A stretch of DNA of 64,000 nucleotides from Reyranella humidisoli (GTDB lineage Bacteria; Pseudomonadota; Alphaproteobacteria; Reyranellales; Reyranellaceae): assembly GCF_019039055.1 (NCBI RefSeq), contig NZ_JAHOPB010000001.1:434001-498000 (forward strand), written 5' to 3'. The notes below the pieces were generated by a model. It was not told where the DNA came from. It did not search any database and worked only from the letters and a program-made list of their open reading frames with translations. Within the stretch, counting starts at the first letter, position 1. Each line of letters opens with the position of its first letter. The position numbers were made by a program, and so were the translations under genes. Positions 3,419-52,316 of this stretch are shown here, piece by piece.

Positions 3419-3784
3419 CTATGCCTTCACCGCATTCCACTTGCAGCCGCCATCCTGGCTCTGCGCCACCAGCGTCGGCGGCGTCGCGCCCAGGTCGGCG
3501 GTGTAGATGAGGTTCATGCGGCCGAGATTGAAGCTTCCCTGGTACACGTTCGGACGGATCGGCTTCAGCTTGACGTCGATTCCGCCCGCCGACTTGATCT
3601 CGGCCTGGCCGTTCACGATCCTGAACGTGTGCTCGCGCGTGAAGGAAGGATCGGCCTGGATGCAGCCGGAGATGCTGTTGGCGTTCTCCTTGAACCAGAA
3701 CTTCACCTCGGCGTCCTGCTGGGCGGCGGCGGCGAGCGGCATCAGGCCCACCAGGGCAAGCGTGGCGAGTTTTTTCACGAGCAT
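3419..3784 (-). CDS. Small secreted protein, unknown function
   Basis: A 121-residue exported protein: MLVKKLATLALVG is the start of a signal peptide that probably ends at AAAAQQ. The mature domain (about 98 residues) is predicted to be mostly beta strand and contains two Cys (SISGCIQAD and the C-terminal GGCKWNAV) that could form a disulfide. A purine-rich stretch (GGAAGA) precedes the ATG. It lies 35 bp downstream of the start of the cyclase gene on the same strand and may be in one transcript with it. I do not recognise the family. Confidence 0.75.
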   Translation of the reverse strand: MLVKKLATLALVGLMPLAAAAQQDAEVKFWFKENANSISGCIQADPSFTREHTFRIVNGQAEIKSAGGIDVKLKPIRPNVYQGSFNLGRMNLIYTADLGATPPTLVAQSQDGGCKWNAVKA

Positions 3785-3844
3785 GGCTGTTCTTCCTTCA
3801 TGGGCCGGGGCTGCCGCCCACTCTACAGCGGGCGGACCGCCCCG

Positions 3845-4537
3845 TCAGTCTTTGCTGCGCAGCAACCCGTAGGCACCGCCGGCAAGTGCCCCGCCCAGCA
3901 GCGGCGCCACCCAGAACAGCCAGAGCTGCGACAGGGCCGCACCGCCGACGAACAGGGCCGGCGCGGTGCTGCGGGCCGGGTTCACGGACGTATTGGTCAC
4001 GGGAATGGTCACCAGGTGGATGAGGGTCAGTGCAAGCCCGATCGCGAGTCCGGCCATGCCCGGCGTGACCCGCTTGTCGGTGGCGCCCAGGATGATGGTC
4101 ACGAAGCCGAAGGTCATCACGACCTCGATCACCAGCGCGGAAACCAGACCATATTTGCCAGGCGAATGGTCGCCATATCCGTTGGTCGCGAAACCGCCGA
4201 TCTCCGCGCCGACCTTGCCGGTGGCAATGACATAGAGGATGGCGGCGCCCGCGATGCCGCCCAGCACCTGCGCGACCACGTAGTGGACGACCTCACCCAT
4301 GGGATGGCGGCCCGCGACGGCCAAGCCCACCGTCACCGCGGGATTGAAGTGGCCGCCCGACACGCCGCCCACGGCATAGACCATCGTGAGGACGGTGAGG
4401 CCGAAGGCCAACGACACGCCCAGGAACCCGATGCCGAGTTGCGGGAACCCCGCGGCCAGCACGGCACTGCCGCATCCACCCAGCACCAGCCAGGCGGTCC
4501 CCAGAAATTCTGCATAAAGACGGTTGCTGATCGGCAT
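3845..4537 (-). CDS. aqpZ: Aquaporin Z-type water channel
   Basis: A 230-residue major intrinsic protein that forms a tetrameric water pore in the inner membrane. Both pore-lining NPA motifs are present: [12 protein letters not shown] in the first half and [14 protein letters not shown] in the second, the latter carrying the selectivity-filter Arg of the ar/R constriction. Six hydrophobic helices plus two half-helices match the family length. The frame is open a further 52 codons upstream, but [21 protein letters not shown] is the family N-terminus and is preceded by GGGGAG, so the start at 4537 is preferred. Divergent from the peptide transporter operon. Glycerol facilitator activity is less likely given the AqpZ-like sequence. 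Confidence 0.95.
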
Positions 4538-4739: not shown

Positions 4740-6374
4740 ATGTTCCTGCGCCGCCGAAGCCTGATCGCCGCATCGGGTCTTGCCGCCACCAGCTTTGTCC
4801 TGCCGCGCATCGCCCTCGCGCAGGCCGACCGCCGCCCCTCGATCACCATTGCAGTGCAGCAGATCGCCAACAGCGCCTCCCTCGAGCCGCTGCGCGAGCA
4901 ATCCAATGTCGGCCAGCGAGTCTTCTCCTTCGTGTTCGAGCGCCTGATCATGCAGGACCTGCTCGCGAAGCTTGAGGAAGTGCCGGGCCTTGCCGAGAGC
5001 TGGAAGCGCCTCGACGAGCGCACCGTCGAGTTCACCCTGCGCAAGGGCGTGAAGTTCCACAACGGCGACGAGATGACCGCCGACGATGTGGTCTTCACCT
5101 TCAGCCGCGACCGCATGTTCGGCCCGGACTATGACATCGCCTCGACCAAGACACTGTTCACCTCGGTCCTGATCCGCGATTCCGTGCAGGGCAAGAACCT
5201 GCCGCCGGAAGTGCCAGCCGTCGCCAAGCGGCTGTTCCCCGCGCTGGAAAAGGTCGAGGCGGTCGACAAGTACACGGTGCGATTCACCAACCGCACACCC
5301 GACGTGACCATGGAAGGCCGCATTGGCCGCCTCGGCAGCGACATCGTCTCGCGCCGCGCCTACGACGAGGCGAAGAACTGGCTCGACTGGGCCCGCGCGC
5401 CGGTCTCGACCGGTCCCTACAAGGTGCGCGCCTTCGTGCCCGACCAGTCCCTGACGCTCGACGCGCACGACGACTATTGGGGCGGCCGGCCGCCGCTGAA
5501 GAGCGTGACCATCGTCGTGGTGCCGGAAGTCTCGACCCGCATCAACGGCCTGCTGGCCGGCCAGTTCGACTTCATCTGCGACGTGCCGCCCGACCAGATC
5601 TCCGGCATCGAGAAGAACCCGAAATTCGAAGTGCTGGGCAGCACCATCGTCAACCACCGCATCACGGTGTTCGACAAGAACCATCCGCGGCTCGCCGATC
5701 CACGCATCCGTCAGGCGTTCACTCACGCCATCGACCGGCAGGCGATCGTCGACGCGCTGTGGTCGGGCCGCACGCGCGTCCCGGCCGGCCTGCAATGGGA
5801 ATTCTACGGCCCGATGTTCGTCGAGAACTGGACGGTGCCCGCCTACGACCTGGGCAAGGCCAAGGCGTTGCTGAAGGCGGCCAACTACAAGGGCGATCCG
5901 ATCCCGTACCGGCTGCTCAACAACTATTACACCAACCAGGTTTCGACGGCGCAGGTGCTGGTCGAGATGTGGCGCGCCGCCGGCCTCAACGTGCAGATCG
6001 AGATGAAGGAGAACTGGCAGCAGATATTCGATGCGAACAGCCCGCGCGCCGTGCGCGACTGGTCCAACAGCGCCGGCTTCAACGACCCGATCTCCTCGCT
6101 CGTCGCGCAACACGGGCCGCAGGGCCAGCAGCAGCAGGTCGGCGAATGGACCAACGAGGAGATGAACAAGCTCTCGGTCGCGATGGAGGTCGAGACCGAC
6201 ATGGGCAAGCGCAAAGCGATGTTCCGGCGCATGCTCGAAATCTGCGAGCGCGAAGACCCTGCCTATACGGTGCTGCACCAGAACGCGACCTTCACCGCCA
6301 AGCGCCGGGACATCAAGTGGAAGGCCTCGCCGTCCTTCGCCATGGAGTTCCGCGCCAACAACTTCTCGGTCTGA
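4740..6374 (+). CDS. Peptide/nickel-type ABC transporter substrate-binding protein
   Basis: The periplasmic receptor of the five-gene ABC operon. It is a 544-residue SBP_bac_5 (DppA/OppA-like) protein. The N-terminus MFLRRRSLIAASG with twin Arg and a hydrophobic core ending ALAQA suggests Tat or Sec export. The family signature is visible as VEFTLRKGVKFHNGDEMTADDVVFTFSR near residue 95, and the domain continues through DPRIRQAFTHAIDRQ. GGGGAG precedes the ATG. The ATPase gene follows 10 bp downstream. Ligand may be a peptide, opine, or another oligomeric compound; the sequence does not decide this. Confidence 0.93.
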   Translation: MFLRRRSLIAASGLAATSFVLPRIALAQADRRPSITIAVQQIANSASLEPLREQSNVGQRVFSFVFERLIMQDLLAKLEEVPGLAESWKRLDERTVEFTLRKGVKFHNGDEMTADDVVFTFSRDRMFGPDYDIASTKTLFTSVLIRDSVQGKNLPPEVPAVAKRLFPALEKVEAVDKYTVRFTNRTPDVTMEGRIGRLGSDIVSRRAYDEAKNWLDWARAPVSTGPYKVRAFVPDQSLTLDAHDDYWGGRPPLKSVTIVVVPEVSTRINGLLAGQFDFICDVPPDQISGIEKNPKFEVLGSTIVNHRITVFDKNHPRLADPRIRQAFTHAIDRQAIVDALWSGRTRVPAGLQWEFYGPMFVENWTVPAYDLGKAKALLKAANYKGDPIPYRLLNNYYTNQVSTAQVLVEMWRAAGLNVQIEMKENWQQIFDANSPRAVRDWSNSAGFNDPISSLVAQHGPQGQQQQVGEWTNEEMNKLSVAMEVETDMGKRKAMFRRMLEICEREDPAYTVLHQNATFTAKRRDIKWKASPSFAMEFRANNFSV

Positions 6375-37606: not shown

Positions 37607-38595
37607 GGCAGCACGGTCACTCGTGCCGGATCGTAAGCGAGCGTCACCTGTGCGCCCGCCGCCAGCGTGCGATGCGGCTCGTCGAGCGACGCGACCCGGA
37701 TCAAGGCGCCATCGGCCAGCTGCACGTCGAAGCGCGTGATCGGCCCCAGGATTTCGACATGCGTTACGGCGCCCGAAAGTCGCGGCCAGCCGGAAGGCGC
37801 CTCCGCATCCAGGCGCAGCGCTTCGGGTCGCAGCGAGATCATGCCTGTGCCGGCAAGGCCCAGCACTTTCGGTTCGAGCAGGTTGGTGGTGCCCATGAAC
37901 TCCGCCGCGAAGCGCGACGCGGGCTGGCGATAGATCTCGGCCGGCGCGCCGACCTGCTCCAGCCTGCCGCTCTGCATCAGGGCGATGCGGTCGGACACCG
38001 ACATCGCCTCTTCCTGGTCGTGCGTCACGTAGATCGCGGTAATGCCCAACGACTTCTGCAGCTCGCGGATCTCGGCGCGCATGCTGACCCGCAGCCGCGC
38101 ATCGAGATTGCTGAGCGGCTCGTCGAACAGCAGGACCTGCGGGCGGATCACCAGCGCGCGGGCGATGGCGACGCGCTGCAACTGGCCGCCCGAGAGCTGG
38201 TGCGGCCAGCGCTCGCCGTAACCGCCGAGCTGAACCAGCGACAGCGCTTCCTCGACGCGGCGCGCAACTTCCGCCGCGGGCACCTTCCGCGCCTTCAGGC
38301 CGTAGGCCACGTTGCCGGCCACAGTCAGGTTGGGGAACACCGCATAGTTCTGGAACACCATGCCGATATCGCGCGTATGCGCCGGCAGGGTGTCGATGCG
38401 CTTCGCCCCGAACCGGATCTGGCCCGCGTCGAGCTCGCAGAAACCCGCGATCATGCGCAGCAGGGTGGTCTTGCCGCAGCCCGACGGCCCCAGGAGGGTA
38501 AAGAATTCGCCTTCGCCGACGGTGAGATTCACACCGTCGACCGCGCGCACCGTCCCGAAGGTCCGGGTCGCGCCGTCAATGACGATATCGGTCAC
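37603..38595 (-). CDS. ABC transporter ATP-binding protein (FbpC/PotA type)
   Basis: A 330-residue ATPase. It has Walker A GPSGCGKTT, the Q-loop MVFQNYAVFPNLTVAGNVAYGL, signature LSGGQLQRVAIARALV, Walker B LLFDEPLSNLDARLR and H-loop VTHDQEEA, followed by a C-terminal TOBE domain (about residues 245-330) typical of the FbpC/PotA/CysA group. I start it at the GTG at 38595, two bases after the receptor stop; the open frame that runs upstream overlaps the receptor gene and is not coding. No ATG lies near, so GTG is the most credible start. Confidence 0.93.
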   Translation of the reverse strand: MTDIVIDGATRTFGTVRAVDGVNLTVGEGEFFTLLGPSGCGKTTLLRMIAGFCELDAGQIRFGAKRIDTLPAHTRDIGMVFQNYAVFPNLTVAGNVAYGLKARKVPAAEVARRVEEALSLVQLGGYGERWPHQLSGGQLQRVAIARALVIRPQVLLFDEPLSNLDARLRVSMRAEIRELQKSLGITAIYVTHDQEEAMSVSDRIALMQSGRLEQVGAPAEIYRQPASRFAAEFMGTTNLLEPKVLGLAGTGMISLRPEALRLDAEAPSGWPRLSGAVTHVEILGPITRFDVQLADGALIRVASLDEPHRTLAAGAQVTLAYDPARVTVLP

Positions 38596-46483: not shown

Positions 46484-47176
46484 ATGGAACTCAACATCAA
46501 GACGCTCTACCTGGTCGGCGCCATCGTCACGGTGTGCGGCGCGGGCGCTGCGCTGCTGACCTGGTACCATCATCGCGACGCGCCGGGCCTGCGTGCCTGG
46601 ACCGCGGCTTTGCTGCTCACCAGCCTGGGCGCGTTGATCCTGCGCTTTCAGACCTCGCAGGCCGACCTCACTCTGGCGCTCGCCGCCGACATGCTGATCG
46701 TCGCGGGTTTCGCCTGCATGTGGCTCAGCCTCAGGTTCGCCAATCACGGGCGCTCCGGCCTGCCGCGGCTGATCCTGCTCTCGATCACCGTCAGCCTGGC
46801 GTTTCTCGTCCTGTTCGTCGTGCTGCGCGCGATGGGCGCGGGCCGGCAGGCAGCCGCCATCCCCTTCTCGCTGTTCCTCGGATTGCTGGGCCTCGCCTCC
46901 GCCTGGGAAATCTGGCAGGGCCGCCACAAGGACCGGCTGAGCAGCCGCCTGCCGGCCGCTCTGGCGTTCGTGGGCCTCGGCATTGCGCGCGTGATCCGCG
47001 CGGGCGTGCTGGGCTTCGAGGTCCTGCATGTGCTGCCGGCCGGCTCCGCAGCGGCGACACACCCCTACACGCTCTACGCCACGATCGTCTTCACGCTGGT
47101 GGTCACTTACGGTCTGGTGATGATGGCCAGCGAACAGGCCGGCCGCCAGGAAGCGGCCCAGTTCGCCGAGTCCTGA
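46484..47176 (+). CDS. Seven-helix membrane protein of unknown function
   Basis: A 230-residue integral membrane protein with about seven hydrophobic segments starting at LYLVGAIVTVCGAGAALLTW. The pattern of helices and the last segment TIVFTLVVTYGLVMMASEQ resemble the N-terminal membrane sensor found in front of GGDEF diguanylate cyclases, but the protein stops just after it (RQEAAQFAES) and no GGDEF domain follows in any frame. It begins 26 bp after the binding-protein gene and may be co-transcribed. A stand-alone sensor or truncated cyclase are both possible. Confidence 0.75.
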   Translation: MELNIKTLYLVGAIVTVCGAGAALLTWYHHRDAPGLRAWTAALLLTSLGALILRFQTSQADLTLALAADMLIVAGFACMWLSLRFANHGRSGLPRLILLSITVSLAFLVLFVVLRAMGAGRQAAAIPFSLFLGLLGLASAWEIWQGRHKDRLSSRLPAALAFVGLGIARVIRAGVLGFEVLHVLPAGSAAATHPYTLYATIVFTLVVTYGLVMMASEQAGRQEAAQFAES

Positions 47177-47186
47177 GGCAGACCGG

Positions 47187-47315
47187 CTAAAGCTCGCTGC
47201 CGACGAACTGCCTGAACTCGGCCGTCTTCGGATCGGCGAACAGTTCGGCCGTCGGGCCGATCTCCCAGACCTTGCCGCGATGCATGAACACGACGAGGTC
47301 GGCGACCCTGCGGGC
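47187..47315 (-). pseudogene. Remnant of amino-acid ABC transporter ATPase (C-terminal end)
   Basis: In the minus frame ending in TAG at 47187 the sequence reads ARRVADLVVFMHRGKVWEIGP followed by TAELFADPKTAEFRQFVGSEL. This is the C-terminal end of a GlnQ/HisP-type ATPase (region after the H-loop). All upstream ATPase sequence, including the Walker motifs, is missing and is replaced abruptly by the start of a permease gene. Confidence 0.8.
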
Positions 47316-47425
47316 GCGCCGCCCACGAAGGCGATCAGCGACAGCAGGATCGTCCAGCGTGCGCGAAACCGGGCAAAGTCGGGGCGGTTCCCGGCTTTAT
47401 CCAGCTCTGCGCTTTCAACTTTCAT
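47316..47425 (-). pseudogene. Remnant of amino-acid ABC transporter permease (N-terminal end)
   Basis: From the ATG at 47425 the minus strand reads MKVESAELDKAGNRPDFARF and then RARWTILLSLIAFVGGA before the frame switches into unrelated or ATPase-derived sequence. It looks like the cytoplasmic N-terminus and first helix of a His/Glu/Gln/Arg-type ABC permease. The junction with the ATPase tail is at about 47315. One internal deletion of roughly 1.5 kb between permease and ATPase would explain both fragments. Confidence 0.65.
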
Positions 47426-47470
47426 GCGGCCATCACGTTATCAGCTCCAGAACCGGAGGTTGATTCACGT

Positions 47471-47683
47471 ATGCCAAGAGACATTCGAACGATGCCCAAG
47501 GGCCTGATCGCCCCGCTGACGCAGGCGACCCTCACGTCGTTACGCGGGCTTGCCGACGGGACCGCGTCGTCGATGGCCGAGGATCATCGCGCGCGTCTGC
47601 TTTACCTGGCGCTAATCGAGTCCGGCCCCGAAGGCGATGCCATCACGGCACTGGGCCGCGAGCGGCTGGTGTCGGATCGTTAG
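47471..47683 (+). CDS. Hypothetical small protein
   Basis: A 70-residue open frame: MPRDIRTMPKGLIAPLTQAT and onward to LYLALIESGPEGDAITALGRERLVSDR. GGAGG lies about 11 bp ahead of the ATG. It is largely helical by composition and has no signal or membrane segment. Its last bases overlap the convergent phosphatase gene by 4 bp. I know no family for it; a real gene is more likely than not. Confidence 0.5.
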   Translation: MPRDIRTMPKGLIAPLTQATLTSLRGLADGTASSMAEDHRARLLYLALIESGPEGDAITALGRERLVSDR

Positions 47684-51080: not shown

Positions 51081-51854
51081 ATGAAGATCGCCACCTTCAA
51101 CGTCAACAACGTGAACCGACGGCTGCCCAACCTGCTCGCCTGGCTGAAGCGCGCAAAACCGGACATCGTGTGTCTTCAGGAGTTGAAGGCAGCCGACGAG
51201 GCGTTCCCAGAGGCCGCGCTGCGGCGCGCCGGCTATCCGGCGGTCTGGCACGGACAGAAAACGTGGAACGGCGTCGCCATTCTCGGCCGCAAATCGGCGC
51301 CCGTCCTCATCCGCAAGAGGCTACCCGGCGACCGCACGGATACGCAGAGTCGCTACATCGAAGCCGCGGTGAAGGGGTTGGTGATCGGCTGCCTCTATGC
51401 GCCCAACGGCAACCCGCAGCCGGGCCCGAAACTCACCTACAAGCTCGACTGGATGCGCCGCCTGCAGACCCACGCGAAATCACTGCTGAAGAGCGGCGCG
51501 CCGGTCGTGCTGGCAGGCGACTACAATGTCGTGCCGACCGACTTCGACATCTATTCGCTGCGCTCGTGGAAGAACGATGCGCTGGTCCAGCCGGCGCCGC
51601 GCGCGGCGTTCAGGAAGCTGCTGGCGCAGGGTTGGACCGACAGCCTGCGCACGCTCCATCCCGACGCGCCGATGTACACTTTCTGGGATTACATGCGGCA
51701 GCGCTGGGAGCGCGATGCGGGCCTGCGCCTCGACCATCTGCTGCTGAGCCCCGATCTCGTCCCGCGCCTGAAGCGCGGCGGCGTCGATCGCGAAGAACGC
51801 GGGCGCGAAGGCCCGAGCGACCATGCGCCCGCGTGGATCGAACTGAAGAAGTAA
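51081..51854 (+). CDS. xth: Exodeoxyribonuclease III (AP endonuclease)
   Basis: A 257-residue Mg-dependent DNA repair nuclease of the ExoIII/APE1 family that incises abasic sites. Motifs: MKIATFNVNNVNRRLPNLLAWLK, CLQELKA with the metal-binding Glu, IGCLYAPNGNP, the LAGDYNVVPTDFD block with catalytic Asp/Asn, RLDHLLLSPDL, and GPSDHAPAWIEL with the terminal catalytic Asp-His. Length and order match the family. It ends about 100 bp before a terminator-like dyad and a convergent gene. Confidence 0.96.
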   Translation: MKIATFNVNNVNRRLPNLLAWLKRAKPDIVCLQELKAADEAFPEAALRRAGYPAVWHGQKTWNGVAILGRKSAPVLIRKRLPGDRTDTQSRYIEAAVKGLVIGCLYAPNGNPQPGPKLTYKLDWMRRLQTHAKSLLKSGAPVVLAGDYNVVPTDFDIYSLRSWKNDALVQPAPRAAFRKLLAQGWTDSLRTLHPDAPMYTFWDYMRQRWERDAGLRLDHLLLSPDLVPRLKRGGVDREERGREGPSDHAPAWIELKK

Positions 51855-51955
51855 GAGCCCCTCTCCATTCAAAATGGGAGGAGCTGCGTTTCACGTGATC
51901 GCTCTGCCAACGGCGCTCCCGGACATTGCCAAAGGCAATGTCCTGCCGCTTGGCG

Positions 51956-51974
51956 GGCTGAGCTTCGCTCAGCC
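51956..51974. terminator. Palindrome GGCTGAGCTTCGCTCAGCC, probable bidirectional terminator
   Basis: A perfect 8-bp stem with a 3-nt loop. It ends one base before the stop codon of the convergent minus-strand gene and follows exonuclease III. The identical 19-mer recurs at 58234-58252, also between convergent genes. A smaller dyad, GACATTGCC-AAA-GGCAATGTC, lies 20 bp upstream (51932 region). Confidence 0.6.
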
Positions 51975-52316
51975 TCACATGGAGGGCGGAAGCTCGTTCA
52001 GCGCCTGCTTGGCGATCGGCATCATCGTCTCGCAGAAGTTCTTCTTGTTCTTCTCGGCTTCCTTTTCCATCGTGTCGTAGGTCTTGTCGAGCTTGCGGTC
52101 GGCGATGTTGAGCTGCTTCTCCGCCCACTCGATCCAGAATTCGAGACGCTTTTCCTGCTCCTTGGTCATGTCGAGGTCGCACGTGTCGACCGCGACGGAA
52201 ACCGCATAGAGGCCGATCACCATCTTCTCGGCATCGTCCTTCGTGAGCGTCTGGGCGGAAGCGGCGCCAAGCGGCAGCGCGAGCAGGATGAGCAGACTGG
52301 AGAAGAGGCGAAACAT
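51975..52316 (-). CDS. Small secreted protein, unknown function
   Basis: A 113-residue exported protein with signal peptide MFRLFSSLLILLALPLGAASAQ. The mature part is largely helical and charged (MTKEQEKRLEFWIEWAEKQLN, KTYDTMEKEAEKNKKNFCE) and has two Cys (VDTCDLD and NFCETM) that may pair. GGGAG precedes the ATG. I do not recognise the family. It is divergent from the secreted protein at 52.5 kb. Confidence 0.78.
   Translation of the reverse strand: MFRLFSSLLILLALPLGAASAQTLTKDDAEKMVIGLYAVSVAVDTCDLDMTKEQEKRLEFWIEWAEKQLNIADRKLDKTYDTMEKEAEKNKKNFCETMMPIAKQALNELPPSM

Follow-up and report, generated by a model that had tools for sequence, protein, structure and literature searches.

The segment at positions 47187-47359 of the window (the whole 64,000-nucleotide stretch of DNA analysed here, from the genus Reyranella) is, judging from comparisons with related sequences, very probably the scar of a recently deleted operon that encoded an amino-acid ABC importer. 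The initial annotation had proposed that a recent deletion removed most of such an importer, and this is supported by the presence of the intact operon at the same genomic site in the relative G062 and by the absence of its genes elsewhere in the window's genome. The remnants in the window are 98-100% identical to the G062 sequence, but all that is left of the operon are 42 codons of the ATPase and 46 bp of one permease, both of which are likely to be without function.

G062 is the nearest genome compared, with long stretches of the flanks showing 92.6-96.0% DNA identity; its assembly, in 800 contigs, has a stated completeness of 75%, and the locus lies on one contig. All six genes of the operon are intact there, on the minus strand and between the same flanking genes, and each is identified by a Pfam match: a GntR/FCD regulator (PF00392/PF07729; positions 4898-5647 of the locus L074), RpiB (LacAB_rpiB, PF02502; 4455-4901), a family-3 binding protein (SBP_bac_3, PF00497; about 3623-4426), permease A (BPD_transp_1, PF00528; 2878-3561), permease B (BPD_transp_1, PF00528; 2231 to about 2899) and a GlnQ-type ATPase (ABC_tran, PF00005; 1501-2247). 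The occurrence together of an ATPase, two permeases and a family-3 binding protein, as recognized by Pfam, identifies the G062 operon as one for a polar amino-acid ABC importer. The same intact arrangement is found at this site in G076, the next operon-bearing relative, and in five outgroup genomes, too, the operon adjoins the left flank found in the window (split over contigs in G044). These comparisons of the locus across relatives used matches of at least 45% identity.

The region 47187-47425 consists of three pieces that match relatives separately and not as one unit. The first, on the minus strand at 47187-47316, comprises the last 42 codons and the stop (TAG) of the GlnQ-type ATPase in an open frame. 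It shares 128 of 130 bases with the intact gene of G062 (L074 1501-1630), both differences being synonymous, and its match in the search of the genus (E = 1.4e-63) is far beyond chance. It meets the second piece at 47314-47316, where GCG is common to both parental sequences and 1160 bp are gone relative to G062 (L074 1631-2790). This second piece, RWTILLSLIAFVGGA, is a 46-bp island on the minus strand (47314-47359) derived from the first transmembrane segment of permease B, and all 46 bases are the same as L074 2788-2833. A second junction follows at 47360-47361, where two bases of uncertain parent (TG) precede the outside flank; the matching points in G062 are L074 2833 and 5714, with 2880 bp between them. 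Both junctions are defined from the assembled sequence, and the remnants retain their ancestral order and orientation.

These boundaries modify several details of the initial annotation, which had described a permease start of about 37 codons joined at one junction to the end of a GlnQ-type ATPase. The ATPase end is confirmed, with its extent now set by the 42 codons and the stop, and an alignment with relatives shows that G062 does keep the full permease-ATPase pair at the site. The supposed permease start is flanking sequence (see below), the genuine permease part comes from inside permease B, and there are two junctions. The loss of the rest of the permease and ATPase genes was correctly noted, but it is more extensive than had been proposed: relative to G062 most of the ATPase and of permease B, and all of permease A, the binding protein, RpiB and the GntR regulator, have disappeared. 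The sequence GCGGGCGCGCC, suspected of being a direct repeat at the junction, is the join itself, formed by the 3-bp overlap of the parental sequences.

The third piece, MKVESAELDKAGNRPDFARF in the antisense reading (20 residues, 47363-47425), is part of a right flank block that extends over 47362-47470 and is the same as L074 5714-5822 at 99 of 109 positions. It lies next to the histidine phosphatase side in 11 relatives, with or without the operon (G062, G076, G048, G078, G045, G008, G015, G079, G070, G066 and G017). In the alignment, the codon corresponding to the ATG of the window's MKVES reading is ATG in none of these 11, being GTG in four, TTG in one and GCG in six, and translation of the antisense block in five relatives reveals an internal stop in G015 only. 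Given the lack of an ATG in all 11 relatives and the stop in G015, the MKVES peptide is neither a permease start nor a conserved gene, and both possibilities were ruled out.

The right neighbor of the scar is a small conserved ORF of 70 aa with no Pfam family (47471-47683, plus strand), which is in the same frame in 10 of the 11 sequences read out; the exception, G017, was translated in another frame, yet tblastn gives 80% over all 70 residues there, and G052 and G079 show only a partial match. Its end overlaps the stop of the convergent histidine phosphatase gene, and the conserved block at 47362-47470 lies upstream of it. The phosphatase gene itself (histidine phosphatase branch 2, PF00328; 47680-49041, minus strand) is intact and provides the right-hand anchor of the locus. 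To the left, the scar is adjoined by a gene for a 230-aa hydrophobic, probably membrane, protein with no Pfam family (46484-47176, plus strand), and beyond it is an intact stand-alone gene for a family-3 binding-protein-like product (PF00497; 45733-46458, plus strand) that is not part of the lost operon. Further to the right, a 257-aa ORF (51081-51854, plus strand) codes for what is presumably an exonuclease III-type protein; the segment 51091-51976 is without a counterpart in G062, with the match to L074 jumping from 51090 to 51977, and is present in G015.

A search of the window's genome (given as 99.62% complete, in 6 contigs) with 4083 bp of the stretch removed relative to G062 recovered only the scar and paralogues, the best of which shows 71% identity over 368 bp. 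The lost regulator, for which 36 of the 65 genus genomes have a match, has none in this genome at E <= 1e-60, and a search for a second copy of the operon in the same genome found none. Within the window, 38119-38366 resembles the lost ATPase gene (84% identity over 81 bp), and hence probably codes for another ABC ATPase. One other gene of the RpiB family is present on contig C3 and there is thus no clear RpiB deficit; a loss of RpiB function was accordingly set aside.

None of the roughly 128 nonsynonymous sites in the remnants differs from G062, which indicates that the loss is recent relative to the split from G062. The dS of the flanks between the window and G062 is 0.187 (five genes, 1612 codons); a loss dating from that split should have let about 12 nonsynonymous changes accumulate along the window's branch (p about 6e-6), and the dS range of 0.14-0.254 translates into an expectation of 9 to 16. 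From these substitution counts the loss would date to roughly the final quarter of the window's branch since the G062 split, provided that the remnants have evolved neutrally ever since and that the two branches share the same rate.

We considered whether the operon might be present in the organism and have been dropped or collapsed in assembly. The pieces have only 3 bp in common at the first junction and no clear homology at the second, leaving no repeat that could have misled the assembly; in addition, the assembly combines few contigs and high completeness with the want of a regulator copy at E <= 1e-60, and the operon is absent from other related genomes too. An assembly error therefore appears quite improbable. 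Alternatively, shreds of the ATPase and permease genes could have been inserted at a site that never harbored the operon in the window's lineage, as might be suggested by the several relatives that lack it there. This is highly unlikely, as the operon adjoins the corresponding left flank in the sister genome G062, in G076 and in the five outgroup genomes, and as the dS of the operon between genomes is within or below the range for flanking genes. This range is also consistent with vertical inheritance, without proving it, and does not favor the view that G062 regained the operon by horizontal transfer.

A stand-alone conserved element or small gene, in place of a deletion scar, could account for the open frames, for the conservation of the MKVES block in relatives and for the GTG or TTG found in 5 of 11 at the position of the window's ATG. 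It is scarcely credible given that the remnants correspond to stretches inside intact genes, that a GCG replaces the start codon in 6 of 11 relatives, and that G015 has the internal stop. Moreover, none of the matches listed among the 64 other genus genomes spans the scar, contrary to what a short sequence standing alone in relatives, which the initial annotation had regarded as grounds for refutation, would entail. The deletion scar thus remains our preferred reading.

The proposed loss might have come about in two separate illegitimate deletions or in a single complex event; measured against G062, 1160 bp and about 2880 bp would have gone, with only the ATPase tail and the shred of permease B being spared. 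One simple deletion would produce a single junction, whereas there are two here, separated by 46 bp, and this counts against so simple a course. No long direct repeat was found at the joints: the region 47150-47480 contains only a single direct pair, of 9 bp, and two short inverted ones, all of which are away from them. Homologous recombination between direct repeats was rejected, as the shared sequence amounts to GCG at the first junction with no clear homology at the second; such little or no shared sequence fits illegitimate recombination. Ku/LigD end joining, or else replication slippage, may have joined the ends, the parental sequences having 0-3 bp in common. A gene for Ku lies in the window's genome next to one for a LigD-type protein that has primase-polymerase and ligase C-terminal domains, which makes end joining possible, and going by the presence of these genes the Ku/LigD pathway possibly made the deletion.

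The wider history of the site was examined on a tree of four genes from 18 genomes, these being the best matches to the 230-aa left-flank protein, which is matched in 40 of the 65 genus genomes (own genome counted). G062, G079, G044 and G010 are each represented in the alignment by three of the four genes, and synteny on the tree covers 18 of the 65 genomes, with the other 47 falling outside it. The operon is kept in nine of the 18 (split over contigs in G044 and G017) and absent in nine. If regain is disallowed, the simplest reading by a by-eye count over the 18 genomes is apparently six separate losses at the site, in G000, G015, G052, G045, G078 and the group G008/G066/G070/G079, the last of these groupings having a support of only 61. 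The regulator search gave no match in any of the eight other operon-less genomes. Like the window, G078 has pieces of this ATPase left at the site (L077 3176-3341), but its decayed remnant is more diverged, has other breakpoints and is adjoined by about 7.6 kb of other DNA (L077 3135-10956). In G008, G079 and G066 about 17 bp resemble the ATPase gene end by eye, a similarity that a short-word search did not recover, and in G015 and G070 no operon leftover was seen at the site. The flanks are about 7.5 kb apart in G045. At the G008 site two other ORFs, of 167 aa and 133 aa, occur instead of the importer (L050 4742-5689). That the importer was lost repeatedly in one Reyranella clade, with the spacer being a place of recurrent gene loss and replacement, can be put forward as a tentative and rather doubtful proposal. 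If true, it would mean that the transporter (with RpiB) is often dispensable or costly, or that the site is prone to breakage.

The analysis removes a trap for annotation, in that the long minus-strand ORF beginning MKVES is not a gene and the ATPase tail is only what is left of one. A further outcome is the record of an amino-acid importer operon being lost recently, and apparently recurrently, in Reyranella; a search of the literature on Reyranella and ABC transporters yielded no paper on such a loss in this genus. The scar itself is an ordinary one of gene loss and leaves general understanding unchanged. Gene remnants left by deletions are well known in bacterial genomes, where they reflect a deletional bias. 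Such cases likewise involve short pieces of genes lying in a spacer, joined across sequences with hardly any homology or none; unlike them, the scar described here lies in a genome of 5.5 Mb and not in the strongly reduced genome of a symbiont.
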